This document shows, one piece after another, positions 27,001-33,000 of a stretch of DNA of 64,000 bases (position 1 is its first letter; every line of letters starts with the position of its first letter). The notes under the pieces were generated by a model. That model saw only the letters and a program-made list of their open reading frames with translations. It did no database searches and was not told the DNA's origin. This stretch comes from Daphnia pulex (Eukaryota > Arthropoda > Branchiopoda > Diplostraca > Daphniidae), in assembly GCF_021134715.1 (NCBI RefSeq), contig NC_060025.1, positions 2,356,001 to 2,420,000 of the forward strand, in the 5' to 3' direction. Position numbers and translations under genes: made by a program.

Positions 27001-30000
27001 AGCCGGGGTAGTAGCCCACAGTCATACGAAAGGAATGAAAGAAGTATATTGAGACATCCATAATGGATAGAACTCCCCGAGTGTAGTGGTGGTAGTAGTA
27101 CTAGCAAGCAGCAGCAGCAGCAGCGGAGAGCTTTGAAAGAGGTGGGAGAGACGTCCGCTGGGCTGGATGCGTTGCGAGCATGGCGGATGACGACGACTTT
27201 TATATAGTGCAAGTCCCTAATGCCCCGACGCGGTCGTCGGAGATCATTCAGCGCATTTTCTCCGGGGCTCTGGAATATTTGACGACGTCGATTCATATGC
27301 TATTTATGTTGGTGTTTTCTGATTGTTTTTGTCTTTTTTCTTTCCCGCTATTTTTTGGTTGTCTTTCTTCTTCATCTTCTTCTACTTTGAAATTGTTTTG
27401 CCATCCGATTGCGGACGGAAATCAAACCCAATCGGCACAAACAGCATTCTGGGCATGAACTTGTTCGGATGCAAATTTTGTCGCAAAACCAGCGACCAAT
27501 CGACGAGTTGCGACCGTAAAAACTTCGACTCCCTCCTGTGGGCCATAGTGACCGTGTTTCAGGTACATCCAAACCAAAAAACCATCCATCCATCCATCCG
27601 TCTCCATTCTTCTTTTACACCCTTTTTCTTCTTCCTTCCCTCCCATTGAATAATGATCCTGTAAATATCTAACGAATGAGCCGAGAAAAACCAACCCAAC
27701 CTTTTATCTCTTTTCTATCCATTCCGTCCAATGACATCATCAATCGCTTGCATCGATCCGTTTCACTCCTCCCTCCCTCCATCCCCCCTCCCAACTCCCC
27801 GTACAGTAGAGAGAAAGTTGGATGACTTTTGAATTATTTGATTGCCAAATGACTTTGATCACTCCCTCTCGCCCTATATAGTTCAACCATCACTACCCAC
27901 GGCCACCATCCACAATATCTAGAAAAGACATAGACATAGATCAGAAAAACCCAGCACCACCAAACTTTCTACTACTTCTTCTTCTTCTTCTTCTTCTTGG
28001 CATTTTCTGCTGCTGCAACGGCAGACCCCCCTCAATTAGCTAATTAGATACCTCCTTTAGAAGTCGCTCCCCGGTGCAGCAAAGGAAATCGCATCCTTAT
28101 GTTCCGTCTACCGCGTCTAACATAGATTATTGCCAAACGGCTGCTACCTGCCCTCCCTCGTGCTCTTCCAGCATCCCTCCTCCCTTATAGCTCTATGGCT
28201 GTATATATATATTTATATACACTACGCTTTCTTCCTTCTTATATTATATATACACACACGTCCGTATTTTTTCCTTTTTTTTTTTCTTTTTCTTTCTTCT
28301 GTCTGGTTCCTTACCACTTAACGTCGCTGCTGTATAGGCTCATTATTAACCCCCCAGGCTTCTAACTGGCTGACTTCTTCCATCTAGTAGCCGGGTTGTG
28401 CTGCTGTGCCTATTTTTCTTTTTCTTTCTTCCCTCCTTTTAGAAATAGATGACGATGTGTGACGTTTCCATTCGTAATAATCGCTCTGCCGAAACGGCCG
28501 TTCCAATTGATCGTCCGTTCAAATAGGCGCTGAAATCAACTTGTTACAGATCGATGGCCGCGCGCACAGGATATTAGTCGATCAGATATAGAGAGGACTT
28601 GCCCGCCCGTCATATCTTCTGGTGAATTCATCGCGACACGGGTCGTTTGACATCCAAAGACACAGCCAGTTGGAGGAGAAGGAGTACGCCAAACTCTGGG
28701 TGGATGGGGGGGCTCGACTAATTATGTCTGCAATCTCTTACTACTTCTTCTTCTTGCGACTTTTGCTTCATCTACCATTTTTGGCTTTTAGTATTTGATG
28801 TCGGAAGAAGAAGAGAGAGAAAAGGGAGGAAGAAGAAGAAGAGAGGTCGTCCGGAAAGAGTTATGACGTCGCTGCCAGAAAACGGTCAATAAACCGCGGC
28901 TAGAGTAGCGCGATAAAGGAGAGACAGAGTCGAGAGTCTAGACTGATTTATACATATTAGGCGGCTCAATCTAGGACCTCTAAGAAACCCAGGGTGTGTA
29001 CGTGTGTCGCGGCTCCTGTAACGCAAAGATATCCTTTGATTATTCACCGAGAGAGAGAGAGAGAGAAAGGGGGGGGGGGGAGGAATAGGAGGCTGCAGCA
29101 GCTGTCCGGTCTATAGCCCATTTCCCTAGCTACTTGTCTATAAGCTGGCAGTAATGGAGAACTCTTCAATCTCGCACGGCCGACACATCCGCAGAGAGGA
29201 GAGCTGATCTGGGCGTCTGGGGAAACTGGGGCGACGAGTCGAGTGTGTCTGTGAGACATGTCAACACCATTGCAGCAGCAGCAGTTGGTCGATGGGTGAT
29301 GAGTGTGAAAGATAACACCCAAAAAATGAAAAGATCCTTCTCTTTTTTTTATCCCTTATTTCCACTCGAAATAGTGGAAACCCCCTCCCCCCTTCCGTCA
29401 TCGGCGCTGTGGGACAGACAAATCGTTCGTGTCGTTCCGTCTTCTCCTGATTGCATTTCAACAGCGTCTTTACAATTTCCCCTCGGAATGGAAAAATGGG
29501 AGGGTGAAAGAAAACGAAAGAGAAAAAGTGCTCATTCAAATGTTGTCGTGTAGGCGGGATCGAATCAGTCCCCGATAATATCGTCGTCATTACCGAGAAA
29601 AGATGATGACGACGACGACGAGTCGTACAGTTCAATATGTTTTTTTTTTTTAATTTTCAAGGAGTTGATGAAATATTCATAAACGGCCACGGACTTTTTT
29701 AAAATTTATGTTTTGGCTGCCCGTTCTATTAAATGTGTTCTTTGATTGTACCGTGTCATTAGATGTGTTTTATTTCTTTTTTCTCTTCTTATTTTCGTTT
29801 TTCTCTCCTAATTTGTCCAATTTGTTGACGGTCGATGACGCCATGACAGCGTACTAGGCATGTATCTGTTTGGCGGTAAATTTTGCATGCGAGAGGACGG
29901 CTCCCGATCTTGCACGTGCTCGGAGATTCTCGACCGGGATCCCGGTTGCGTCTGCGACCGAAAACACTTCAACACTTTGCTTTGGGCTACTGTCACCGTC

Positions 30001-33000
30001 TTCCAGGCAAGTAGCGTGTCGTACAATTTAACCCGTCAATTGATTATATTAATCTAAAAAAACAAACAAAACATTACACACGATACAGTAATGTTATCCA
30101 TTCATTAATTAGTAGTGAATTTTTTAAAAACAATTATGACAGCCCAACATTTTTAACATTTATCTTTGACTGCATATTATAAAATAGAGTAGACCCCTCC
30201 CCCCCTCAACAGAGATCACTCATGTGTTTAGATATTTCCTTTTACTCTCTCACAGTACATAGTTTTACCGAAATCCTCTCGATGATGTCATTCTTTCGAT
30301 CCTTATCATTTGTACGTTTGTCTTTTTCCGGGATAAAACCTTGGAACACAAATTCCTTCTTACCCCCCCAGTTAATGAACTTCTTTTAAAATATAAAAAA
30401 ACATCAAAATCCCTCGCCACCCCTTTTGTGTCCCGTTCCAATTCCGTGCTTCCCCAATCCCGATCCTAGCACATAATTCTTGGCCATTGAATGTGTATAA
30501 CGCCGCGGTGTCTCTGTGTGTGTGTCTGCTGGCGTGTATAGATCTTGACTCAAGAGGATTGGAATGTCGTCCTCTTCAACGGCATGGAGAAGACGAGCCA
30601 TTGGGCGGCCCTCTACTTCGTGGCCCTCATGACGTTTGGCAACTACGTCCTCTTCAATCTACTCGTCGCCATTCTCGTCGAAGGTTTCTCCGCCGAGGTA
30701 CGTAACAACACAATCTATACACGGCTAGCTAGCCTACTCCCTATTTATTGGTGGGCGCGCACCATAACCGTACCCACCACACACGCATTTACATTCGGAC
30801 TTTCTATTGATTTTCTGTCGCCACACGGCCAACACAACAAAAGAGAAACAATAACCGTCACAATTTCTATTCAACTTTTGTCAAACAAAACAGAAACGAG
30901 AAAAAGAAAACGAATTTAACTGATTCGGATTTCACCTGGCATGGTGTGATTACATAAGAAGCTAGCCTATTTTTGATTTGATTTGACATTTGCATGGATC
31001 ACTTCAATTGGAGAATTGAAATTTAACTCGAGTCTGGAATGCCTAACTAACAAAAAAAACCAACGAAAAAATGGTCCCGGGAACTTTTTTTTGGGTTGGT
31101 GGGATTGAAAAGGAATAATGGAGGCTGTCAAGAAAGTGTCATTGTTGTATTTTTGCGGTTACGGTTGTCATCTTGGCCATCACCCATGGGTACTCCCCTC
31201 ATGGTGAATGTGTGTGTGTGTGTGTAGAGAACGGAGCGATTGGAACGTGAGCAGCGGGAGCAGGCCAGACAGGAGCGTCACGCGGCAAGGGCTTTGGCCA
31301 CGGCCGCCGCCCTGTCGATCCAGGACGAAGGAACATCCGGCGCCGGCTCTTGTCACGATGAGCAGGCACCCCCTCCGCCTAACGATTCGTCACCTGACTC
31401 ACCACCTCAAGAGCAGCAGCAGCTCCAACAACAGCACGACAACTACTTTTCGAGATCGTCGGTGACGGAGGAGAGTTGCAGTCCCGTCGGTTACACCCCG
31501 TCACCGGTCATCAACAGCGCCGAACTCGCCGACTTGCTACTCGAGGTCCGTCTCGTCTGTGTGTCTGTGTGTTGGCCGCTGTTATATTTTATTTTCCAAA
31601 AAAAAAAGACAAATTTTTTTGATACAAGTGGCCTTATAGTCTCTGTAGAACGCTCCCTCCCAACCCCGCGCGCGCGCTTTTTTGATTGACGTTATTATCT
31701 CGATCCATTGACAATTCAGGACATGTGCAAGAACGGCTGTGGCACTAGTGAATGGGGGAATTTTTGACGTTTCTCGTTAATGAACTTGACATTTTCTACG
31801 ACAACGTCAACGGTTCCGCATACATTTGATAACTTTTTTCTTCTTTTTTTTCCACCATCAACCACTTTCACATGTTCTCGAATATCTCCCGCGAGGCGAA
31901 AAGAAACACGCATCCTTGCGTTGTATATTCGTGGCTTTATCGTTTATAGTTTGGATAGAGCGAAAAAAAGCTTTTCATGTGACGCATAATACCTAATTTT
32001 TTTTTCTAGCCTCTCCCCTTATCCTCAATGTATCCAGTTATCTAATAATCATTACCTCATTAAAGAACCAGACAGAGATGGAAAAGCCCAACACATAAAT
32101 CAATAAACAAACGGAGGATAAAAAAGACGTTTCCTCCGGCTACCCAAGCCAAAATGTACAGATAGAATAGACCATCACCACCGCATACCATAAAATAAAA
32201 TAAAAACAACTTCCAATGACGACGGGAAAAAGAAGTTGATATTACCCATAGTTTCTTACCCCCCTTTTTTCTGTGTGTGTGATTTCTTTTTTTTTATTCA
32301 ACGTCGTAGATTTTTTTGTGTGCTCTGTGTGTTTGCGCGGTGTGCATCATTTTGTTTCTACATGTACACCAACCACATCTTATTTCTGTTCTCCGGCGTG
32401 TGTGACTTTGATCGATCTTAATGACCCCATCCTCGCAAAAAGGCCATACAGCATCAATGGTGTGTGTGTGTGTGTATCACATAAAGACGCGAGAGAAGAA
32501 GAGTCTAACCGCATGATTGAAATCGATGAGCTGTTTTCTTTTACTTTTCCTTTTTATTTTTGCGGCTCATTTTTCTTTTTTTAGTCGCATGAGGAATGTG
32601 CAACAACAACAAATCATGTGAGAATGATGAAGGAGGGGAGGTTGAGTTGTATCCGGCGAAAAAGAAGGAGCGGGATTTCGGTATACACACGAAGCCAACT
32701 CTTTTTTTTTTCTTCTTATGTTGTCCATTCCCCCGACTTCATCGTTGGTTGTTTAAACAAACGGGCGCCGTTTTGTACTAACAAACTTTTTTTTCTTTTA
32801 AATTCCCGCTTTTTTTTCTTCTTTTTTTTTCTTGTCGATCCTAATCCTCCTGACGCCATCCTCCCCTCCTCCTTCCGGCTGTGTACATATGATGTAGGAG
32901 GAGCGCAAACAAGCCAAACTGGCATTGTTGGAGTCTCAACAACAGCGACGTCTTAAGGAGAATTCGTATAATGCCATTCAGGAGCAACAGCGTCGCGAAT

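Follow-up and report, generated by a model that had tools for sequence, protein, structure and literature searches.

A pair of alternative domain II turret exons, both with a lysine ahead of the selectivity filter, in a CaV3 T-type calcium channel gene of Daphnia pulex

Can a crustacean T-type calcium channel gene exchange calcium selectivity for sodium permeability by splicing in one turret exon instead of another? The question is raised by a stretch of 64,000 nucleotides (nt) of Daphnia pulex (RefSeq assembly GCF_021134715.1, contig NC_060025.1, positions 2,356,001 to 2,420,000; hereafter the window), where two exons, 14a and 14b, encode turrets with three and five cysteines, respectively, for domain II of a CaV3-like channel. 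An earlier reading of this DNA from its letters alone (the sequence-only reading) had recognized the pair and likened it to a published switch between calcium-selective and sodium-leaky behavior. We find that the reading frame permits exactly one of the two exons, which are alternatives for the turret between S5 and P1 of domain II, and that both carry a lysine at the site to which the published switch was traced. The explanation that we regard as best overall, with moderate confidence, is that 14a and 14b are mutually exclusive orthologs of the protostome exons 12a and 12b and that the 14b channel would lack clean calcium selectivity.

The frame relations of the two exons are unambiguous. Exons 14a and 14b each supply the single base that completes the last codon of exon 13, followed by 39 or 52 codons, and both end with VTVFQ at a codon boundary, after which exon 15 continues with ILTQEDWN; their phases therefore match at both ends. 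When the exons were spliced in silico, the combinations 13+14a+15+16 and 13+14b+15+16 both remained open (exon numbers follow the sequence-only reading, and the bounds of exon 16 are our own placing). If both 14a and 14b are retained, the frame runs into a stop 27 nt inside 14b (127 nt upstream of the 14b junction); if both are skipped, it meets one just 4 nt inside exon 15, with 149 nt left to the exon end. The lengths, coordinates and cysteine counts given in the sequence-only reading were exact, and the matching phases and these stops bear out its proposal that the exons share flanking phases and that their joint use shifts the frame. Because inclusion of both exons or of neither gives an early stop, such forms would likely be removed by nonsense-mediated decay, leaving one exon per functional transcript. 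It had also been proposed that a consistent finding of just one of the exons in transcripts would speak against the pair; this holds if it is always the same exon, but otherwise one exon per transcript is what mutual exclusion predicts. Both exons are very probably used in vivo.

Most non-vertebrate CaV3 genes are described as carrying mutually exclusive exons 12a and 12b, of which 12a has 38-46 residues with the motif CxxC...C and 12b has 48-55 residues with C...CxC...CxC in most protostomes (Guan 2020, PMC7382465); the 12a motif is printed as CxC....C in Stephens 2015 (PMC4436565). Exon 14a fits the first definition (39 residues, CxxC...C, with cysteines at residues 9, 12 and 22), and exon 14b fits the second (52 residues, C...CxC...CxC, with cysteines at residues 12, 21, 23, 33 and 35). 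On these patterns the two are identified as orthologs of protostome 12a and 12b, and we are nearly certain of this orthology together with the exclusivity of frame. The proposal of the sequence-only reading that the locus would extend the mechanism to this lineage does not hold for the exon pair, since passages of PMC4436565 and of Guan 2022 (PMC9694082) already name arthropods as having both turret exons.

The two exons are also related to each other. Compared with one another by blastp, 431 stop-to-stop frames on the plus strand between positions 8000 and 41500, each with 25 or more residues, gave 9 frame pairs at E 1e-3 or better, including 14a/14b at E 3.3e-11, a value that argues that their likeness is not due to chance; the other eight pairs are read as repeats between the four domains of the channel. 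Searches of the species' own genome, in which the best candidates were scored, matched the 14b peptide to 14b itself and 14a, and the 14a peptide to 14a itself and two pieces of 14b. No second CaV3 turret or third turret exon appeared among these best candidates, a scope that a strongly diverged copy could escape. Against sequences of the Protein Data Bank (PDB), the best matches of both exons are turrets of human CaV3 channels: 14a matched CaV3.2 at E 7e-13, with the best CaV2 at 0.019. Exon 14b matched CaV3.3 at E 0.0019 over the whole chain (0.097 for the best stretch alone), with no CaV1 or CaV2 among its PDB matches up to E 10; given this weak match, it is chiefly the resemblance of 14b to 14a, together with its frame and place, that identifies it. 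No relatives of 14b or exon 15 were found in bacterial and archaeal genome contigs or in viral contigs, and as these collections contain no animals, they are silent on the conservation of either exon.

The assignment to a T-type channel and to the domain II turret, as proposed by the sequence-only reading, is upheld by the filter motifs, the CaV3 matches and the homology to published turret exons. Coding pieces of the gene lie on the plus strand at about 16.7 to 38.7 kb of the window. The four domain filters read SLEGW, TQEDW, SSKDGW and TGDNW, that is EE(D)DD with the beacon aspartate of domain II, as expected of CaV3. The top PDB matches of exon 15 are the three human CaV3 channels, at E 4.4e-30 (CaV3.3) to 5.2e-29, followed by CaV2.3 at E 2.3e-14. 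Among solved channels the turret and filter exons are thus nearest CaV3, and by sequence the gene is a CaV3 T-type channel gene.

The functional reading turns on a single residue. In the snail Lymnaea, the three-cysteine exon gives a sodium-permeable channel and the five-cysteine exon a calcium-preferring one, a difference traced to K1067 of 12a versus A1078 of 12b, both of which precede the beacon aspartate (D1087 and D1098, respectively) by 20 residues (PMC9694082). Changing the alanine of snail 12b to lysine raised the current 13.49-fold with sodium, compared to 2.32-fold in the wild type (PMC9694082). When snail 12a is set at 1043 to 1081, in keeping with the published lengths of 39 residues for 12a and 50 for 12b (PMC9694082, PMC7382465), C1051, C1054, C1064 and K1067 become residues 9, 12, 22 and 25, the very indices of the three cysteines and K25 in 14a, while A1078, lying 14 residues before the end of its exon, corresponds to K38 in 14b. 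Mapped by these published residue numbers, K25 and K38 both stand 20 residues before the beacon aspartate. The lysine of 14a agrees with the 12a type, although this sign is non-specific as human CaV3 channels share it. Exon 14b departs from the 12b type, for which a neutral residue (A, M, S or T) is given at the lysine place; this departure bears on function rather than on orthology, since the neutral residue was put forward as a rule in molluscs and nematodes.

Since both exons have the lysine, the calcium/sodium switch is not simply transferable to this gene. The analogy drawn by the sequence-only reading keeps its basis in exon homology, but both exons carry the lysine, unlike those of the snail and nematodes. 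Its reference to a switch in molluscan and insect channels was overstated as well, for the switch was measured in a mollusc (Lymnaea) and modeled for nematodes (PMC9694082).

A working model can be proposed on this basis. The 14a isoform would be sodium-permeable, as is that of snail 12a, an expectation raised further by the presence in this gene of the four-cysteine L6 loop of domain IV; this loop is reported to go with exon 12a in invertebrates (PMC7382465), and a human channel showed the full effect only when it also had the snail loop (PMC9694082). As the Ala-to-Lys mutant of snail 12b was sodium-permeant, 14b with its lysine would, by the published rule, be no clean calcium-selective alternative. 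Exon choice would swap the turret itself, its internal disulfides and a cysteine able to tether the domain I S1-S2 loop; a disulfide between turret and S1-S2 loop is described for CaV3.1 (PMC7382465), and the two cysteines of PCIDQVC are candidate partners here. Given the lysine of 14b, splicing probably acts mainly through this disulfide scaffold and the tether to the voltage sensor, with effects on gating speed and divalent block, and any change of selectivity between the isoforms would be graded rather than all-or-none. That a lysine-based on/off switch is absent from this gene we consider slightly more probable than its presence. In a fuller version, plausible but held only tentatively, the gene lost the switch or never had it, sodium passes through both isoforms because each neutralizes its beacon aspartate, and splicing sets gating speed and divalent block by way of the tether.

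The chief rival is that the published switch does work here, with 14a sodium-permeable and 14b calcium-preferring because the five-cysteine loop holds its lysine off the beacon. Both exons have the canonical cysteine architecture (as defined in PMC7382465), and cysteine bridges shaped both selectivity and block in the snail channel (PMC9694082). One point weighs directly against a loss of calcium preference in 14b. Human CaV3.1, 3.2 and 3.3 carry a lysine at the same offset (K904 versus D924 in CaV3.1) and are calcium-preferring without high sodium permeability, so the lysine alone is not decisive and loop geometry must matter; by analogy, 14b could be calcium-preferring too. The sources contain slips, in that the 12b mutant also appears as A1089K, a figure legend has C1054-C1075 for a loop that is C1054-1064 in the text, and C1051 is printed C0151 (PMC9694082, PMC7382465); the residue numbers used above are the mutually consistent values, which agree with the stated exon lengths. 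On the other side, a lysine added to the snail five-cysteine loop sufficed for sodium permeation (PMC9694082), and 14b has a lysine at that place naturally. The two predictions for 14b are in conflict, a sodium-permeable channel from the lysine rule and a calcium-preferring one from the cysteine architecture. We lean slightly to the first, and a working switch, while possible, appears rather doubtful.

The splice signals of the pair are unusual in two respects and may be signs of a regulated exon. First, the donor of 14b is the sole non-GT donor among the five of exons 13, 14a, 14b, 15 and 16, and its placing yields the same VFQ/ILTQED junction as in 14a. Apart from its GC, this site fits the consensus of GC-AG introns. 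An in-frame GT donor 9 nt further downstream was rejected by eye, since its use would insert three residues immediately ahead of the filter. Second, the acceptor AG of 14a is separated from the preceding AG by 193 nt, compared to 88, 87, 72 and 91 nt at the acceptors of exons 13, 14b, 15 and 16; it ranks second among the 3270 AG gaps of the window, with a single gap exceeding it. A pyrimidine-rich stretch lies about 60-120 nt upstream of 14a, inside this AG-free zone, and a distant branch point is predicted. Human exons whose AG exclusion zones reach 100 nt or more were more often seen to undergo alternative splicing, and the experimentally defined exons with distant branch points are all alternative according to the authors (PMC1431707). 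The one longer gap (203 nt, positions 32693-32896) also falls within the CaV3 gene, downstream of the exon pair, and may mark another regulated exon.

How the choice of one exon is enforced is a separate matter, on which the protein itself demands exclusivity. Enforcement by a steric clash of splice sites or by RNA pairing between introns appears improbable. Steric exclusion is ruled out by the 2287 nt between the exons, a distance far too long for it. Pairing was assessed in 80-nt windows with 40-nt steps and 6 shuffles per intron pair: in two of the three pairs the best duplex was stronger than all shuffles (-42.4 vs -41.8 and -45.7 vs -42.4 kcal/mol), but the third fell below its best shuffle (-57.7 vs -58.6 kcal/mol). 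As these margins are small and the shuffles few, the duplexes are no proof of intron pairing as the cause. The view that 14b is unused or dying, so that the gene in practice makes the 14a channel alone, draws on its GC donor and on the scarcity of pyrimidines just upstream of its acceptor (0.40 of 20 nt), but is very improbable given that its frame, phases, five-cysteine pattern and pore-helix end are intact, that the 14a acceptor is hardly better (0.45 of 20 nt) and that most protostomes are reported to have both exons (PMC7382465).

Table 1. Positions in the window of the exons, motifs and splice signals of the CaV3 gene discussed in the text
Feature	Position	Strand	Remark
Domain I S1-S2 loop cysteines, PCIDQVC	16823..16843	+	candidate partner of a turret-to-voltage-sensor disulfide
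Domain I selectivity filter, SLEGW	20987..21001	+	part of EE(D)DD
Exon 13, domain II S4 to S5 (...FIF)	26332..26544	+	reading frame joins 14a/14b
AG-free stretch before the 14a acceptor AG, 191 bases	27252..27442	+	predicted distant branch point
Exon 14a, three-cysteine turret of 12a type, CxxC...C	27445..27562	+	118 nt, 39 codons
Lysine codon AAA of 14a (K25), site of snail 12a K1067	27518..27520	+	index 25/39
Exon 14b, five-cysteine turret of 12b type, C...CxC...CxC	29850..30006	+	157 nt, 52 codons
Lysine codon AAA of 14b (K38), site of snail 12b A1078	29962..29964	+	14 residues before exon end
GC-type 5' splice site of 14b, CAG/GCAAGT	30007..30012	+	boundary yields VFQ/ILTQED as in 14a
Exon 15, domain II selectivity filter and S6	30542..30697	+	filter E and beacon D in TQEDW, starting at 30548
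Domain III selectivity filter, SSKDGW	35578..35595	+	part of EE(D)DD
Domain IV selectivity filter, TGDNW	38422..38436	+	part of EE(D)DD
Domain IV L6 loop, four cysteines (C..C..CC)	38470..38505	+	invertebrate form, reported to go with exon 12a

Downstream of the CaV3 gene, an open frame on the minus strand (52995-53402) matches the Pfam domain DHR-2 Lobe A at E 7.9e-24 and probably belongs to a DOCK-family gene. Two further open frames have no Pfam match at E 0.01: one on the plus strand (41914-42633) encodes a secreted-looking cysteine-rich repeat protein with CQ.GRPCQ-like units, and one on the minus strand (46770-47051) contains tandem EKEDCKQV-like repeats. A tRNA-Ser with anticodon GCT was predicted by ARAGORN at 55745-55828 on the minus strand. 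In the whole genome (133.19 Mb, 13 contigs), a 30-base TTAGG repeat has 7439 + 4286 exact matches, while no exact match was found for a TTAGGG repeat, as is fitting for an arthropod.

Turret splicing is a known case in which selectivity is set outside the filter. In this gene the natural five-cysteine turret bears the lysine that snail 12b needed by engineering. A comparison of this gene with the snail channel and with human CaV3, which has the lysine and no sodium phenotype, would separate the part of the lysine from that of the disulfide scaffold, or show that both are at work.

The turret exons 12a and 12b of Lymnaea LCaV3 are reportedly the subject of Senatore 2014. Among the other channels, the insect (Drosophila Ca-alpha1T, PMC4673464; honeybee, PMC5286435) and decapod (PMC5096308) CaV3 genes resemble the present one in that each species is reported to have one T-type gene. 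The sodium current of honeybee Am-CaV3 is given as 0.46 of its barium current (PMC5286435), and among the matches listed from the honeybee and fly papers (PMC5286435, PMC4673464) none mentions turret exons or holds current data on the two. The decapod paper gives accessions for crab and lobster (JN809810 and KU702652); the terms "turret" and "mutually exclusive" were not found in it (PMC5096308), and no paper on a crustacean turret exon occurred among the open-licence titles listed. Nematode CaV3 genes, including that of C. elegans, likewise have a shorter three-cysteine and a longer five-cysteine turret exon (PMC7382465, PMC4436565), but in some of them 12b reads CxxC...C...CxC, and the nematode 12b is reported to have a neutral residue (A, M, S or T) instead of the lysine found here. 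In human CaV3.1, 3.2 and 3.3 the end of the turret is alike and is also followed by ILTQED, and the lysine stands at the same distance from the beacon, whereas the turret has one cysteine, no alternative turret exon is reported and the channels are calcium-preferring. The closest counterpart is Lymnaea LCaV3, which shares the protein site of the exon pair, the cysteine patterns, the EE(D)DD filter and the four-cysteine L6 loop of domain IV. Snail 12a and 14a are both 39 residues long and place their three cysteines and key lysine at identical indices; in contrast, snail 12b differs from 14b both in length (50 versus 52 residues) and in having alanine where 14b has lysine at the switch site.

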